Positions 11,356 to 19,510 of a stretch of 64,000 bases of DNA are shown one piece after another. This DNA is from Actinacidiphila sp. DG2A-62 (lineage in GTDB: Bacteria > Actinomycetota > Actinomycetes > Streptomycetales > Streptomycetaceae). The notes under the pieces were generated by a model. The model saw nothing but the letters and a program-made list of their open reading frames with translations, was not told where the DNA came from and made no database searches. Where the stretch lies: positions 7,516,001 through 7,580,000 of the forward strand of contig NZ_JAYMGI010000002.1 in assembly GCF_035825295.1 (NCBI RefSeq), given 5' to 3'. Made by a program: the position numbers and the translations under genes. Position 1 is the first letter of the stretch. Every line of letters begins with the position of its first letter.

Positions 11356-11378
11356 TTGTCAGTGCCCGGCGGTACTTT
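11356..11378 (+). promoter_or_regulatory. RecA-NDp (PafBC-type) DNA-damage promoter
   Basis: TTGTCAGTG, eight bases, then TACTTT: a perfect match to the LexA-independent DNA-damage promoter motif TTGTCRGTG-N8-TANNNT known from mycobacteria and other actinobacteria. It lies 72 bp upstream of the SWIM gene start and points into the five-gene operon. Confidence 0.85.
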
Positions 11379-11450
11379 CGATCACGTCCCGCCGGGAGAC
11401 GGTGGGCGGGACACCCCCCTTTTCCATGCCCTGGACGCAGAGGAGTCGGC

Positions 11451-11966
11451 ATGTCGTCGCAGTGGGAGCGTTCGAGTACGGCACGGGTCGTGGCGCCGGC
11501 CCGGCCGCGCAAGCTCGCCAAGGTGCCGTTCGTGGAGTTGGCGGACGGACGGCTGCAAGGCGTGGTCTCCAGCGGTTCGGACGCGGCGCGGGTCTACGTG
11601 TCGTCCGTCGCCGCGGGCGACTTCGCGTACGCGTGCAGCACCAACAACAACCGGCCGTGCGGCGGCGCCCGGGGCGGCTTCTGCAACCACATACGGGCGC
11701 TGCTCGGCGAGGCGGTGCTGCAGTACGGCGGTGCGCGCGTCGCCCGCTACCTGCGGGTCGAGGCGGAGGAGGGGGAGCAGGGCGAGCCCGGCCCGGCCGC
11801 GATCGAGTACGCGATCTCGCTGACCCGCCCGCCGATGGCGGACCGGACCGACGCCGCGCCGGTCTTCAGCCGGTTCCTGCGTCACCTGGCGTATCTGGAG
11901 TTCGCCCCGGCCACCGAGCCGCTGCCGGAGATGACCTGGTTCCCCGCGAACAGGGCGGCGGCATGA
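11451..11966 (+). CDS. SWIM-type zinc-finger protein
   Basis: A 171-aa protein with a Cys/His cluster at C62-x7-C70-x7-C78-x-H80. This is a variant of the SWIM finger (usually C-x-C-xn-C-x-H) and keeps the diagnostic terminal CxH (FCNH). SWIM fingers bind DNA or protein and occur in recombination and chromatin factors. It is the first gene of an operon with a RecA-NDp promoter, and AGGAG precedes the ATG. Its stop overlaps the next start (ATGA). Confidence 0.8.
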   Translation: MSSQWERSSTARVVAPARPRKLAKVPFVELADGRLQGVVSSGSDAARVYVSSVAAGDFAYACSTNNNRPCGGARGGFCNHIRALLGEAVLQYGGARVARYLRVEAEEGEQGEPGPAAIEYAISLTRPPMADRTDAAPVFSRFLRHLAYLEFAPATEPLPEMTWFPANRAAA

Positions 11967-13759
11967 TGCGCGCCGACCTGCTCACCGCTCCCGTCGAGGG
12001 ACTGGACGAGGCGCTGGCCGCCGCGGACGCCTTCGACCGCGCGCTCGTCGCCGGGCTGCTGCGCCCGCAGGCCGACCAGGCCGCGGACCTCGCGCTGTTC
12101 GCGCAGGCGCTGGGCGGCTCGCCGCTGGCCTCGCGGGTCGCCGAGGCCGCGGAGAAGGCGTCGGCCGGCGCGGCCGGCGAGGACCACTTCGTGGCCCTGG
12201 CCGCCGCCCGCACCGCGCTGCTGGGCGCGGCGGCCGACGCGCTCACGGCACGGGCCGCGGAGGCGATCGGCCGTCCGCTCGGTGCGGTCGCGGACGCCGC
12301 GGCGGCCGATCCGGCGGGCACGGAGGGTCCCGGGGAGACGGTCCGTCCGGCGGGGGAGCCTGGCGCGGCGCGGGCGAACGGCGACGCGAAGGCCACCGGC
12401 GCACTGGGCGGTGGCGCACCGGGCGGCGGCGAGTCGGGCGGCGGCGAGTCGGACGGCGGCGGGCCGGCGCAGACCGGCACGCCCCAGGGGGCCACCGCGG
12501 CCATTGCGGCCAATCAGGCCACTGCGGCAACCAACGCCTCCGGGGCTTCCGGGGCCTCCGGGGCCGCCACCTCCTCGGACACGCCCGCGGGAGGAATGCC
12601 GGCGAATCTGGCCGCCGCCGCGCGCTCCTGGCTATGCGACCTGGCGCGGGCCGGCTGGCGCGGGCTGGACCACGAGCTGGCGGCCGGCGCGGCCCCCGTC
12701 GTGTCCGCGATGCTGCCGGACCCCGCGCTGCGCCGGGCGGCGGCCCTGCTGGACGGCTTCGCCGCCGAGCTGGCCGCCTCCTGCCCGGGCGCGACGCTGG
12801 AGCGGATACCCGCGCGCCGCTGGGGCGATCTGTGGGCGCGCGCCATGGTCCTCACCCTGCCCGGCGCCATGGCGGCGCCCGCGCCCGGCGCCGCCACCGG
12901 CCGGCTGCTGCCGCTCGGCGTGGACCTGCACGAGCACGCGACCGCCGCACAGGCGCAGGTCCACGCGGTGTTCGAACCGGCCGACGGCGGCCCGGCGCGG
13001 CTGGTCCGGGCGAGCGTCTCGGCGCCCAAGCCGGACACCGTCGTCGGCGCGGGCGTGTGGCAACTGCTGCGCCCGCACATGTCGCTGCTGGCCGCCGCGG
13101 CCGAGGGCCGCTCGATGGACCTCGCCGACATGCCGCTCACCGCCGAGGGCGACCTGCTGTGGGACGACGCGCGAGCCCGTACCGGCGAGCCCGCGGACGC
13201 CTTCGCCACCGCCCGCGTGGCGCTGCCCGCCGCGCGGGCCGCGGCCACCGCGCCACTGGACCGGCACCCGGCGCGCCTCGCCGTCCCCGTCTTCCTGGAG
13301 GGATACGCGCCGCGGCGCGGCGACGGGGGCACGCTGGAGTTCGTCTTCCCCGGCCGGGGGGCCGCGGCGGCCGCGACCCCGACCGGGGAGGGAGCCGCCG
13401 CCGGAGCGGGCGGAGACGCGGAGGCAGCGTCCGCCGTGCCCGTCACGCCCGCCGCGTCCGCGCAGGACACCGGCGCCGCCGTGGCCGTGGACGCCACGCG
13501 GGTGCCGTCGGCCGGACCGCTCACCCCCGAGGCCGTCGCGGCCTCGACCGCCTGCATCGCGCTGCTGCGGTGGGACGCCGGGACGTTCCGGGTCCAGCCG
13601 CTCGCCGTGCGGACGGCCGTCCGCAAGAAGACCGTCGCGGTGCACGCCGGGGCATGGGCGGCCGGCACCACCGACAAGCTCGGCGCCAAGGCGGAGAAAG
13701 CCGCCACCGACGCCGTCGCCGTGCTGCGCGAGCGCAGCGGGAAGCTGCTGCGGAAATGA
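11963..13759 (+). CDS. uncharacterised Ala-rich 598-aa protein of the SWIM/MoxR/VWA operon
   Basis: Not recognised as a named family. Residues 1-100 are helical and Ala-rich. A Gly/Thr/Ala-rich low-complexity insert follows (about residues 115-205). A long conserved-looking region then begins with ARSWLCDLARAGWRGLDHEL and contains DLWARAMVLT, LGVDLHEHATAAQAQVH and LRPHMSLLAAAAEG. The C-terminus (TFRVQPLAVRTAVRKKTVAVHAG) looks beta-rich. It is coupled by ATGA overlaps to the SWIM gene upstream and the VWA gene downstream, so it is probably a structural partner of that system. Confidence 0.75.
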   Translation: MMRADLLTAPVEGLDEALAAADAFDRALVAGLLRPQADQAADLALFAQALGGSPLASRVAEAAEKASAGAAGEDHFVALAAARTALLGAAADALTARAAEAIGRPLGAVADAAAADPAGTEGPGETVRPAGEPGAARANGDAKATGALGGGAPGGGESGGGESDGGGPAQTGTPQGATAAIAANQATAATNASGASGASGAATSSDTPAGGMPANLAAAARSWLCDLARAGWRGLDHELAAGAAPVVSAMLPDPALRRAAALLDGFAAELAASCPGATLERIPARRWGDLWARAMVLTLPGAMAAPAPGAATGRLLPLGVDLHEHATAAQAQVHAVFEPADGGPARLVRASVSAPKPDTVVGAGVWQLLRPHMSLLAAAAEGRSMDLADMPLTAEGDLLWDDARARTGEPADAFATARVALPAARAAATAPLDRHPARLAVPVFLEGYAPRRGDGGTLEFVFPGRGAAAAATPTGEGAAAGAGGDAEAASAVPVTPAASAQDTGAAVAVDATRVPSAGPLTPEAVAASTACIALLRWDAGTFRVQPLAVRTAVRKKTVAVHAGAWAAGTTDKLGAKAEKAATDAVAVLRERSGKLLRK

Positions 13760-15330
13760 CCGAGCCGACCGAGCCGACCGAGCCGACCGAGCCCACCGAG
13801 CCGACTGGGCCCACCGAGCCGACTGGGCCGACTGGGCCGACTGGGCCCACCGAAGCCGCCGCGGGCGTGCCCGCCGCCGCGACCGTATCCGTCCCGGACC
13901 CGGCGTCCGCGCCGCGCCCGGCGTCCGCGCCGCGCGCCGCGTCCGACGACGCCCAGGAGCACCGCCGCCAGGTGCTGTACTGGCGGCTGTTGTCCCGGCT
14001 GTTCGACCAGGAGGAGCAGATCGCGCTCGAGGCGGCGAGCGTCGCCGTGGTCGAGGACGCCGGTCTGCCGCCCGCCCTGCTGGACCCGAAGACCTCCGTC
14101 GACTCCCTGGTGCAGCGCCACCCCGAGCTGATGGCCGAGCTGGACGGCCTGATGACGCCGGAGCCCGCGGCCGACGGCGCCCGCGACCGCGCCGCCGAGG
14201 TGCGCCGCGCCGCGCTCGCCTCCAAGCTGCTGCTCAACGTCTTCGCCGCGGGCTCCGGCCCGGTCAGCGCCGCCCAGCTGGGCCGCTGGCAGTCCGACGC
14301 CGGGTGGCTGGAGCGGGCGCTCGGCTGCGCGCCGGGCGGACTGCGCGGCAGCCGGCCGGGGCGGAACAGCGGGGGCCGCGCCGCGAGCCCGACCGGCACC
14401 GGCGGCGGGGGAGCGACGCCGGACCTCAGCCGGCTCGTCCCGCCGATCGGTCCCGACCTCGCCGCGATCGAGGCCGACCTGGTCAGCCGGATGCGGCTGC
14501 GCGAGGTGCTCGCCGACCCGCGGCTCGCCGCGGGACTCACCCCGAGCATGTCGCTGATCGAGCAGTTGCTGCGGGACAAGAACAACCTGGACGGCGTGGC
14601 GTTGGCCAACGCCAAGTCGCTGATCCGCCGCTTCGTGGACGAGGTCGCGCAGGTCCTGCGCACCCAGGTGGCGAAGGCGTCGGCGGGCGAGCTGGACCGC
14701 TCGGTGCCGCCCAAGCGGGTGTTCCGCAACCTCGACGTCGACCGCACGATCTGGAAGAACCTCACCAACTGGGACCCGGAGTCCGAGCGGCTCTACGTCG
14801 ACCGGCTCTACTACCGGCACACCGCCCGCAGGACGACGCCGCAGCGACTGGTGGTGGTCGTCGACCAGTCCGGCTCGATGGTCGACTCCATGGTCAACTG
14901 CACCATCCTCGCCTCGATCTTCGCCGGCCTGCCCAAGGTGGACGTCCACCTGATCGCGTACGACACGCAGGCGCTGGACCTGACGCCCTGGGTGCACGAC
15001 CCGTTCGAGACGCTGCTGCGCACCAACCTCGGCGGCGGCACCGACGGCACGGTGGCCATGGCGCTGGCGCAGCCGAAGATCGCCGAACCCCGCAACACCG
15101 TCGTGGTGTGGATATCCGACTTCTACGAGTGGCGCAGCGAGCCGCTGTTCGAGTCGATGGCGGCGATCCACCGCTCCGGCGCGAAGTTCATCCCGGTCGG
15201 CTCGGTCACCAGCGCCGGTCGCGGCAGCGTCAACCCCTGGTTCCGCGAGCGCTTCAAGGACCTGGGCACCCCGGTGATCTCCGGGCACATCCGCAAGCTC
15301 GTCCAGGAACTGAAGACCTTCCTGACCTGA
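13756..15330 (+). CDS. VWA-domain protein (partner of MoxR-like ATPase)
   Basis: A 524-aa protein. After an N-terminal Glu/Pro/Thr repeat (residues 2-33) comes a helical region and a C-terminal von Willebrand factor A domain. A complete MIDAS is visible: D370-x-S372-x-S374 in VVDQSGSM, a Thr in GGGTDGT and an Asp in WISDFYEW. VWA proteins next to MoxR ATPases act as metal-dependent adaptors in chaperone-like or conflict systems. The start overlaps the upstream stop (ATGA). Confidence 0.88.
   Translation: MTEPTEPTEPTEPTEPTGPTEPTGPTGPTGPTEAAAGVPAAATVSVPDPASAPRPASAPRAASDDAQEHRRQVLYWRLLSRLFDQEEQIALEAASVAVVEDAGLPPALLDPKTSVDSLVQRHPELMAELDGLMTPEPAADGARDRAAEVRRAALASKLLLNVFAAGSGPVSAAQLGRWQSDAGWLERALGCAPGGLRGSRPGRNSGGRAASPTGTGGGGATPDLSRLVPPIGPDLAAIEADLVSRMRLREVLADPRLAAGLTPSMSLIEQLLRDKNNLDGVALANAKSLIRRFVDEVAQVLRTQVAKASAGELDRSVPPKRVFRNLDVDRTIWKNLTNWDPESERLYVDRLYYRHTARRTTPQRLVVVVDQSGSMVDSMVNCTILASIFAGLPKVDVHLIAYDTQALDLTPWVHDPFETLLRTNLGGGTDGTVAMALAQPKIAEPRNTVVVWISDFYEWRSEPLFESMAAIHRSGAKFIPVGSVTSAGRGSVNPWFRERFKDLGTPVISGHIRKLVQELKTFLT
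13759..13851 (+). repeat. 9-bp tandem repeat coding for Glu/Gly-Pro-Thr
   Basis: About ten copies of a CCGACCGAG / CCGACTGGG unit at the very start of the VWA gene, encoding a (E/G)-P-T repeat. It is in frame with the VWA protein and gives an extended, charged N-terminal tail. Confidence 0.85.
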
Positions 15331-15400
15331 GCTGACCCGAGCTGACCTGATGTGACGTGAAGCTGACCCGATGTGACCTGGCTTGACCTGACCTGCTGAA
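15331..15400. repeat. intergenic TGACC/TGACG pentamer-rich repeat
   Basis: Immediately after the VWA stop codon the sequence is an irregular run of GCTGACCTGA-like units. A similar array follows a different gene at 22161-22255. Neither encodes a protein. The 141-bp gap before the MoxR gene otherwise holds only its ribosome site (GAAAGG). Confidence 0.7.
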
Positions 15401-15471
15401 CCGGCCCGCGCCGCCCGCCGCGGCCCCTCCCGCACACCACCTCCGAACCCCCCTTCGCGAAAGGCACCGAC

Positions 15472-16584
15472 ATGTCCGAACTGCTGCGCGCCCCCGCCGA
15501 GATCAAGTACGCCGAGGAACTCGACTGGCTGGAGTCGATCGACGACGGCCCCAAGCCGTTCTCCTGGCGGCTGTCGCCGAAGATGGTCCGCCTGTTCATC
15601 CTCGGCTCCGAGCGCGCGGACGGCCTGGACCGGGAGATCTCCCAGAAGTGGTTCGGCGACCGCAGCTTCGTCGAACGCTCCGTCGTCACCCTCGCCTCCG
15701 ACCGCGGCCTGCTGCTCATCGGCGACCCCGGCACCGGCAAGAGCTGGCTGGCCGAGCTGCTGTCGGCGGCGATCTCCCGCAACTCCACGCTGGTCGTGCA
15801 GGGCACCGCCGGCACCACCGAGGACCACATCAAGTACTCGTGGAACGTCTCGATGGTGATCGCCAAGGGACAGTCGCGGGAGTCGATGATCCCCTCGCCG
15901 ATCATGACCGCGATGGAGACCGGCCGGATCGGCCGCTTCGAGGAACTCACCCGCTCCACCAGCGACGTCCAGGACGCGCTGATCTCGATCCTGTCCGAGA
16001 AGTACATCTCGGTGCCCGAACTCGACAGCGACAACATCGTCTTCGCCCAGCCGGGCTTCTCGATCATCGCCACCGCCAACTCCCGCGACCGCGGCGTCAA
16101 CGACCTGTCCTCGGCGCTCAAGCGGCGGTTCAACTTCGTCCGCATCCCGGTGGTGACGAACAAGAAGAGCGAGGCGGAGATCGTCCGGTTCCGCACCGAG
16201 GAGCTGCTGCGCCGCCACCGGATCGAGCTGGACGTGCCGCCCACCCTGCTCGACGTGCTGCTGCAGAGTTTCGCCGACCTGCGCGCCTCGGCCGCCGCGG
16301 CCGGCAGCGACGACGAGAAGCTGGAGTCCGCGCTGTCCACCGCCGAGCAGATCGGCGTGCTGGAGGACGCGATCCTGCACAGCACCTTCTTCGGCGACCG
16401 CGCGCTGACCGCCCGCACCCTCGCCGCCTCGCTGGTCGGCTCGCTGGCCCGGCGCGCGCCGGAGGACCTGGCCATCCTCAACACGTACCTGCACGGCGTT
16501 ATCGAGCCCCGCGGCAAGGACCTCGGCGGCGCCTGGCCGGAGTTCCTCGAAGGCGGGCGCGACGCGATCGCGACGCTGTCGTGA
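15472..16584 (+). CDS. MoxR-like AAA+ ATPase
   Basis: A 370-aa AAA+ ATPase. Walker A is GDPGTGKS (G84-S91), an IGRFEELTR acidic strand stands in for Walker B, sensor 1 is IIATANSRDRG, and an arginine-finger-like SSALKRRFNFV follows. The architecture fits MoxR/RavA-type ATPases, which remodel client proteins together with VWA partners. Its stop overlaps the DUF5682 start (GTGA). Confidence 0.88.
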   Translation: MSELLRAPAEIKYAEELDWLESIDDGPKPFSWRLSPKMVRLFILGSERADGLDREISQKWFGDRSFVERSVVTLASDRGLLLIGDPGTGKSWLAELLSAAISRNSTLVVQGTAGTTEDHIKYSWNVSMVIAKGQSRESMIPSPIMTAMETGRIGRFEELTRSTSDVQDALISILSEKYISVPELDSDNIVFAQPGFSIIATANSRDRGVNDLSSALKRRFNFVRIPVVTNKKSEAEIVRFRTEELLRRHRIELDVPPTLLDVLLQSFADLRASAAAAGSDDEKLESALSTAEQIGVLEDAILHSTFFGDRALTARTLAASLVGSLARRAPEDLAILNTYLHGVIEPRGKDLGGAWPEFLEGGRDAIATLS

Positions 16585-19510
16585 CCGGCGCACAGACGGC
16601 CGCCGCCGGCGGCCCGGCACTCGACCAGGCGGCCGAAGCCTCGGCGTTCGGCGCGCTGCGCACCCAACTGCAGGACGCCGCCCGCGCGTTCGCCGGCGGC
16701 CAGGACGCCCTGGAGGACATCCTGCTGGGCATCGTCGACGACGTCGACCGTGCCCGGCGCGAGCCGCTGGAGATCTTCCCGGTCTGCCACCACTCGCCCG
16801 CCTCGGCGCTCGCGATGGCCCGGCGGCTGCGCGAGAAGCAGCCCGCGGTGGTGTACCTGGAGCTGTGCGAGGACATGGCGCCGCTCCTCACCGAACTGCG
16901 CAACTGCCGCCTGCCGGTGGCGGTCCAGGCGTTCGCCGGCGAGGTCGACGGCTTCCCCGCCGACTGGTCGCCGCTGTCGGTGGTCGCGCCGATCACCGAG
17001 GCGTCCGCGGAGTACCAGGCGATCGCGTACGCGCTGGACACCCCCGGCGTCGACCTCGTCCTGGTCGACCGCTCCTCCGACCACGTCTTCCAATGGGACG
17101 CCAGAGCCGGGCGGCGGGAGCAGGCCGCGCCGCCCGCCGACCCGGACGCGAGCCCCGCCGACCCCGCGCAGCAGCCGCCGGAGGAGGAGGCCGGACTGCA
17201 CGGCGACGCGGTCGGCGTGGAGATCGGCGACCTGCGGCCGCGCTTCGCGGAGCTGGAGGAGCACCTGCTGCGCCACGGCCGGGTCCGGCACTGGTCGGAG
17301 TGGTGGCACCAGTACGTGGAACTGCCGCTCGGCGACAGCGACCACGACACCTACCGGCAGGTGATGTTCCTGATCGGCAGCCTCTTCCGGCGGCTCGCGC
17401 CCGGCGACCGGGACCGGCTGCGGGTGGACGAGGACCGCGAACGCCACATGTGGACCCGGATACGCGAGCACCTGGCCGCCACCGGCGCCGATCCCGCGGA
17501 CTGCCTGTACGTGTGCGGCGCCTTCCACGCGGCCAGCCGCGTCGCGGAATTCGGCGTGCACGGCGCCGACGGCTTCGTGATCGGCCCGCCCACCGCGACG
17601 GTCTGGCAGCACGGCCTGATTCCCTCCAGCCACACGGCGGTCGAGGCGCAGTTCGGCCTCGCACCGGGATCGGTGTCGATCGCCGCCACCCAGTGGGCGA
17701 AGAACCTCAAGCGCACCCGCGTACGCCCGTACCGGCTGGCCGGCCAGGCCGGCGGGAAGCAGACGGCGGCGCGGACGGCGGCGACGGCGCTCGCCTCGGG
17801 CCCGCGGCGCGCCGCGGCGGCCGGGCCGGGCGGGGCCGGCCCCGCGGACCGGCCGGACGCCGGCGCCGCCGACCGGCTCAGCGGGTTCCTGCGGCGCCCA
17901 CCGGTCCTCGACCCGCTGGACGAGGCGGAGCTGCTCGGCTGGTCGGTGGAGATCGTGCGGGCCGCCCGCAGGAACAACTACCTGGCGTCCACGGCCGACG
18001 CCATCGCGGTGTTCGAGACGTCGATCCTGCTCGCCGGGATGCGCGACCGGGCCCGTCCCACGCCGTACGACTTCCAGGACGCCGCGGTCACCTGCATCGA
18101 GAAGGACACCGTGGTCGGCCGGCGCGACGTGCGCCGGCTGGTGGAGATCATGATGGGCGGCGACCGGATCGGGCAGGTCGGCTACGACGCGCTGCCGCCG
18201 CTCGCCCGGGACGTGCACGACCGCCTCGCGCCGCTGGGCCTCAAACTGCAGCAGCGCGGCGTGCAGCGGGCGTTGCTGGACATCGCCGGCCTGCCGAACT
18301 GGCCCGCTGCTCCGACGCGCTGTGGATCCTGCGCCGCCTCATGCCCGACGGCGCCGCCCGGCCGATCATGGGCGAGCGCGCTTTCGGCGAGCGGGCCATC
18401 CAGGAGTCCTGGGACCTGTCGCTCGGCACCCACCAACGCGCCCTGATCGAGCTGGGCTACGAGGGGGTGAGCATCGAACAGGTCCTGGAGCAGCGGCTGC
18501 GGCGCACCGCCTACCACCCGCAGGCCACGGTGGCGGACGTGCTGCAGACCGTCGAGGACGCGGTGCTGTACCTGCGCAGCCGCCGCCTGGCCGACGAACT
18601 CGGCGCCCGCGCACTGGAGGTGCTGGCCGCCGAGCGGAGCGTCGACGGCGCGCCGGAGGTGCTGCGGCGCACCCGCCGGCTGCTGGCGTACTACCGCACC
18701 GCCGAGCCGGTCCTGCCGGCCTGGATCGAGTCCTTCGTGACGGCCGGCTACGCGCACTACTGCACGCTGCTGCCGACCGCCTTCACCGACGAGGACGCGA
18801 CCGTCCGGCAGGTCGCGGCGACGCTCGGGTTCCTGTTCAGCATGGAGGGGCTCGCGCTGTCGCTCGGCTGCGACCGCACCCAACTGGAGCTGGCCGTCGC
18901 GCAGTCGCACCCCCGGGAGCCCGCGCGCACCGCGCTGCTGTGGGCCGCCCGGAACCACCTGGGCATCCTGTCCCGCGCGGACCTGCGCTCGCGCACCGAC
19001 GAGTTGCTCGGCAGCCCGATGACGCTGCCGGGATACCCGCGCTATCTCAGCGGGTTCCTGGAGGCCCTCGTGCCGGTGCCGGGGCTCACCGACTTCGTGG
19101 TGGAAGCGGTGTCGAACGCCTTCGCCCGGCTGCCCGACCACGTGCTGCTGCCCTGGCTGCCGACGCTGATCACGACCGTGCGGGAGAGCGGCGCCGAGAC
19201 GGTGCCGCTGCTGGTCCGCGAGGCCGGCCGGATCTTCCCCGCCCGGCTCGACGCGCTGGACGCGTGGACGCCGCCGTGGCAGCGGGAGGCCGCGCCGGCC
19301 GCCGCTCCCGCACCCGGCCCGGCCGGCGGCGCCGGCGGCGTCGCGCTGCTGGCCGCCCACCCGGCGGCGTGCGACGCGGTGGCGGCGCTGCTGGGCTGCG
19401 ACGACGGGTGGCGGACGCCGGACACGGCGTCCCCACCGCGGGGCGCGGCGCTGCCGGCCCGCCACCCCGACACCGCGGTCGCGCTGGACGCGCTGCTAAG
19501 CGCGCTCTGA
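16581..19510 (+). CDS. DUF5682 protein (ChaN/EreA/TIKI-like N-terminus), one frameshift
   Basis: A protein of about 976 aa. The N-terminus has VCHHSPASALAMARRL (H70-H71), then VVYLELCEDM and a YVCGAFHAA histidine, the pattern of DUF5682 proteins related to the ChaN/EreA/TIKI hydrolase-like fold. The C-terminal half is helical, with no catalytic motif recognised. The frame changes near 18300 (after GLPN): adding one base joins VQRALLDIAGLPN to LARCSDALWILRRL, so a one-base deletion is likely. It is the last gene of the SWIM/VWA/MoxR operon and may be its effector enzyme (inference). Confidence 0.82.

Follow-up and report, generated by a model that had tools for sequence, protein, structure and literature searches.

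A predicted PafBC-type DNA-damage promoter in front of a mobile five-gene MoxR/VWA/DUF5682 cassette in Streptomycetaceae

The window (the whole 64-kb stretch of Actinacidiphila sp. DG2A-62 DNA analyzed here) carries a cassette of five genes on the forward strand. Gene 1 (11451..11966, +) encodes a 171-aa SWIM-like putative zinc protein with the arrangement C-x7-C-x7-C-x-H, and gene 2 (P2; 11963..13759, +), which overlaps gene 1 at an ATGA, encodes a 598-aa protein of unknown family. P2 is about 463 aa long in orthologues, the additional length here consisting of low-complexity insertions; its assignment as a DUF5691 homologue was tried and rejected, as no profile match was obtained. Gene 3 (13756..15330, +) encodes a CoxE-type VWA protein (PF05762, 2.8e-29) that is 31% identical to E. 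coli YehP, and gene 4 (15472..16584, +) encodes a MoxR-type AAA+ ATPase (PF07728, 5.9e-37) that is 42% identical to E. coli YehL. The N-terminus of the VWA protein (13756-13880) is a TEP/TGP low-complexity repeat, and short TGACCTG/AGCTGACC-like repeats occur at 15330-15420, between the VWA and MoxR genes. Gene 5 (16581..19510, +) encodes a DUF5682 protein homologous to E. coli YehM, which may be a TraB/TIKI/EreA-like hydrolase in view of its HHSPA and CGxFHA motifs. Its frame is interrupted by a 1-nt deletion relative to orthologues near 18,300 (about 18296-18304); 77 of the 78 orthologues have one uninterrupted frame. Because two genes elsewhere in the assembly, for a helicase (L017) and a reductase-like protein (L005), also look split, this frameshift is likely an assembly error. 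AlphaFold models were of too low quality for fold searching (pLDDT 47 for the DUF5682 protein and 50 for P2), profile searches returned no convincing solved homologue, and our literature search found no paper with the word DUF5682 and none pairing SWIM with MoxR.

The sequence-only reading that preceded this analysis had labeled gene 1 as a SWIM protein. The label was retained in the weaker form SWIM-like, since the CxC of SWIM is missing from gene 1 and Pfam gave no match to it, PF04434 (SWIM) included. The spacing of its cysteines differs from the defining CxCx(n)CxH, and comparison with SWIM yielded a weak profile alignment only, unlike SWIM2 encoded elsewhere in this genome, YehQ and a Rhizobium protein, all of which have a Pfam SWIM match. 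No match for gene 1 was found in phages.

Upstream of gene 1, a complete RecA-NDp/PafBC-type promoter site, TTGTCAGTGCCCGGCGGTACTTT, is present at 11356-11378 (+). It is composed of a -26 element TTGTCAGTG (11356-11364, +), an N8 spacer with the letters CCCGGCGG, and a -10 element TACTTT (11373-11378, +), which differs from the TAnGTT of most orthologues. A ribosome-binding site GAGGAG (11440..11445, +) follows, with AGGAG invariant in our upstream alignment A2, and the ATG of gene 1 (11451) starts 95 nt downstream of the promoter motif, in agreement with the plausible promoter-gene distance noted in the sequence-only reading. The site has the form TGTCAG-10N-TA-3N-T, which has been described as one form of the PafBC motif in M. 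tuberculosis (PMC8151990), the source of the consensus, and TGTCRG-10N-TA-3N-T was found on the coding strand upstream of gene 1. When the window was searched with TTGTCRGTG-N7-9-TANNNT, this site was the single match, and dinucleotide shuffles of the window gave 0 matches; sequence, pattern search and shuffles thus confirm the exact consensus match that had been claimed. No LexA box (GAACN4GTTC, one mismatch allowed) was detected between 10,897 and 15,138.

Across the 8.62-Mb genome the motif has 16 matches, every one with an 8-nt spacer, and the reversed control pattern has 0. Sites precede recA and ung, and further sites lie before genes for UvrB-domain, AlkZ-like and DNA_pol_A proteins. 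Several of the 16 precede genes without an evident repair role (an ABC transporter, a DPPIV-domain protein and an isochorismatase), so the list is enriched for repair but not exclusive to it. The chance of one of these 16 sites landing in a given 120-nt interval is ~1e-4. An exact site was also seen at L007 1501, 874 nt upstream of a DEAD-helicase gene resembling cas3. In the wider family, the motif was found in all 101 Streptomycetaceae genomes searched (17 genera), mostly at 10-30 copies each, with nearly none for the reversed control, and named Streptomyces genomes also carry it. Many genomes have an almost identical site, TTGTCAGTGCnnGGCGGTAAAAT, whose -10 is AT-rich, and the window's genome lacks it.

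A LexA study of S. venezuelae reported, from an initial search, that the PafBC motif of mycobacteria did not seem to be conserved there (PMC9380542). The strong enrichment of the motif in 101 Streptomycetaceae genomes bears on the question left by that study, whether a PafBC-type response exists in Streptomyces. In S. coelicolor, the UV-inducible SCO6735 gene is preceded by a RecA-NDp promoter (PMC5087735), and our literature search returned no report of PafBC dependence for such promoters in Streptomycetaceae. The genome analyzed here encodes both pafB and pafC at the pup-proteasome/tat locus, PafB with WYL and WCX domains and PafC as an open frame adjoining pafB, identified by position and sequence. 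A PafB orthologue was present in 61/61 family genomes (17 genera), and PafBC is activated by ssDNA (PMC11804915). The motif might instead be recognized by another WYL-domain activator, given that SiwR and others respond to genotoxic stress (PMC10693628) and that Streptomycetaceae contain several weaker PafB homologues per genome. However, SiwR binds a palindrome (PMC10693628), while the window site has no palindromic symmetry and agrees with the PafBC consensus (PMC8151990), and we consider another activator improbable. PafBC dependence of the window promoter is predicted.

Conservation of the motif upstream of orthologous first genes had been proposed as a check on the damage-promoter claim, and the result was clear. 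In a first set of Streptomycetaceae loci, the exact site was present in 22 of 30, and at least 10 of 12 positions were kept in all 30. In a second set, made up of 80 named loci and two phylum-sample loci and partly overlapping the first, 73 of 82 loci had the exact site upstream of gene 1, with 11/12 positions in five more and 10/12 in two. Over the ~3.0 million positions of orthologous loci, 73 of 75 exact matches fall in the promoter zone, and the motif columns are kept where the upstream columns outside them are poorly conserved. The loci are related, so that these counts are not independent trials; the contrast with the flanks is strong nonetheless. Two loci were without a site. In one of them, L098, the promoter zone contains a run of N; an exact match at -307, outside the zone, is probably the same promoter shifted by that run. 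The other, L133, belongs to a genome that has no exact site anywhere. Three genomes (G346, G526 and G496) had no exact site genome-wide and none before the first gene either, G377 had 12 genome-wide including one before its first gene, and G518 had only two, one of them before its core SWIM gene. Since one short motif may arise by accident, a chance match or resemblance to an ordinary housekeeping promoter was also weighed. With no reversed-pattern match in the genome and 73 of 82 loci conserved, we regard this as extremely improbable for the window site, and chance is refuted as an explanation of the conservation. In the three Embleya-type loci (L027, L028 and L103) the first base of the motif was G (GTGTCGGT), and Embleya has few exact sites genome-wide (0-3 per strand); together these observations suggest a shifted motif in that genus.

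Alignment covariation identified a conserved 5'-leader hairpin between the promoter and the ribosome-binding site (11387..11411, +; TCCCGCC / GGCGGGA here). In the alignment, 92.6% of cells were paired, four of the seven pairs were changed on both sides, and 12 compensatory cells were counted compared with 4.6 in shuffles, all slid versions being far worse. The hairpin would begin at about the start of transcription, ~7 nt past the -10 element. Its variable loop length suggests an RNA hairpin, perhaps one that stabilizes the transcript, and it may alternatively be a DNA operator.

Of 150 family genomes, 46 have a gene 1 orthologue (a marginal one in one genome), and orthologues were also recovered from Saccharopolyspora, Amycolatopsis and Streptoalloteichus. 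All loci of sufficient extent preserve the order gene 1 - P2 - VWA - MoxR - DUF5682, the window's neighboring genes occur in none of the orthologous loci, and in 55 of 77 loci the upstream flank is collinear with no other locus. The five genes (SWIM-like, P2, VWA, MoxR and DUF5682) move as one unit, and a plasmid of Streptomyces fungicidicus has a copy, with a gene for an N-6 DNA methylase close by. This mobile and sporadic distribution, including the unshared flanks and the plasmid copy, would suit an anti-phage or anti-mobile-element MoxR-vWA conflict system, in which the damage promoter would raise expression upon DNA damage by invaders or by prophage induction. A MoxR+VWA core of this type is described for predicted conflict systems, which are enriched in multicellular bacteria (PMC7159879). 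Against this, no component of the cassette gave a confident PADLOC match (weak generic AAA/VWA similarity only), and the main text of PMC7159879 makes no mention of SWIM. The flanks also lacked clear defence enrichment in a test of modest size, with 14 loci and 85 flank proteins set against 99 matched control proteins. The two groups were much alike, with mostly scattered single-model matches in both, which does not support a defence-island gene. The distinct defence models matched numbered 29 in flanks and 12 in controls, many of the former being PD-T4-6 models, and there may be a weak defence enrichment of the flanks. We consider a conflict system fairly unlikely.

A second cluster in the same genome, here called the core cluster, has VWA and MoxR2 genes divergent from SWIM2 and DUF5691 genes, and the interval between VWA and MoxR2 has the size of a DUF5682 gene and is a candidate for one. 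Its intergenic region holds an exact site directed toward SWIM2 and an 11/12 site directed toward MoxR2, and both are conserved in 11/11 Streptomycetaceae loci. This divergent RecA-NDp-like pair lies at about 2850-2980 of the reverse complement of L017, between MoxR2 and SWIM2, and the -10 of the MoxR2-facing site reads CAnnnT in every one of the 11 family loci. Outside Streptomycetaceae the core-cluster match decays, in places in which the motif is rare overall. The core copy was present in 10 of 10 g9 genomes sampled, which is unlike a typical defence gene and is a further point against a conflict system. The two clusters also bear on another possibility, that the MoxR/VWA pair acts as a general chaperone (in metal or cofactor insertion, for instance, as for CoxD/CoxE) whose induction simply accompanies DNA damage. 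Gene 3 has its best Pfam match in VWA_CoxE, and roles in enzyme assembly are cited in PMC7159879 for MoxR-VWA pairs such as RavA-ViaA. However, no client enzyme is apparent in the cassette, which moves alone, and the occurrence of damage promoters in accessory and core clusters alike points to a dedicated role, which makes a general chaperone unlikely.

The conserved motif, the sites before repair genes, the presence of pafB and pafC, the second cluster and the lack of a LexA-box-like sequence all support the prediction of a PafBC-type, LexA-independent damage promoter made in the sequence-only reading. The promoter is, with high confidence, predicted to be damage-inducible, and the operon is very probably part of the DNA-damage response, because the motif is kept in nearly every relative though the operon has moved around genomes. 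As a whole, we think it likely that a RecA-NDp promoter drives an accessory five-gene cassette after damage, with MoxR/VWA remodeling in repair or tolerance. The damage mechanism involving PafBC and sigma-A RNA polymerase is known in mycobacteria. In the window's genome, ssDNA arising from DNA damage would activate PafBC, and sigma-A RNA polymerase would then start at the RecA-NDp site. The resulting transcript would cover a self-contained cassette for the MoxR AAA+ ATPase with its CoxE-type VWA partner, the DUF5682 protein, the SWIM-like zinc protein and P2. This cassette is an accessory second version of the cluster whose core copy in this genome likewise has RecA-NDp control. The MoxR/VWA pair may remodel protein or nucleoprotein substrates in an ATP-dependent manner during DNA repair or damage tolerance, with the SWIM-like zinc protein as a possible targeting subunit. 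SWIM proteins take part in eukaryotic recombination (SWS1), and this parallel is suggestive only, since gene 1 departs from the SWIM definition. Remodeling in repair or tolerance is favored over phage defence because the flanks show no clear defence enrichment, and the assignment of this ATP-driven role to the cassette is tentative, somewhat below an even call.

The cassette can be compared with several known systems. Like the MoxR-vWA ternary conflict systems (VMAP, iSTAND, FtsH), it has a MoxR+VWA core, is sporadic and mobile, and is actinobacterial. It differs from them in having no clear defence neighborhood, and scans with Pfam, NCBIfam and PADLOC, whose libraries may lack relevant models, gave no match to any known third component or effector family. 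Clusters of SWIM-DUF5691-AAA-DUF5682-VWA on Rhizobium and Deinococcus plasmids share its five-part make-up with MoxR, VWA and DUF5682, as does this genome's core cluster, whereas P2 has no profile match to DUF5691. Among the clusters examined, the RecA-NDp site was found in actinobacterial loci only; inspection of the upstream regions by eye revealed neither a radiation-response motif for the Deinococcus cluster nor a LexA-type repeat for the Rhizobium one. The E. coli yehLMPQ cluster (MoxR - DUF5682 - VWA - SWIM) encodes homologues of the MoxR (42% identity), VWA (31%) and DUF5682 proteins, the last with 30% across the ~100 N-terminal residues, and the sequence upstream of yehL showed no LexA-like box. 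The cassette thus has the MoxR + DUF5682 + VWA composition of a yehLMPQ-type cluster without its canonical SWIM protein; its gene order differs, gene 1 is short, and P2 has no counterpart in E. coli. It is conceivable, though we would not presume it, that MoxR/VWA/DUF5682 clusters including yehLMPQ form an undescribed class of AAA+ machine of the DNA-damage response, of which Streptomycetaceae keep a core version under paired PafBC promoters and exchange a compact five-gene version with its own damage promoter and leader hairpin. For this uncharacterized, widespread set of proteins (cf. YehL, YehP and YehM), the present analysis gives a concrete, testable condition of use, DNA damage. The predicted window promoter resembles the RecA-NDp/PafBC promoters of actinobacteria in sequence, spacing, orientation and distance to the gene, and also in its co-occurrence with sites before recA and other repair genes.
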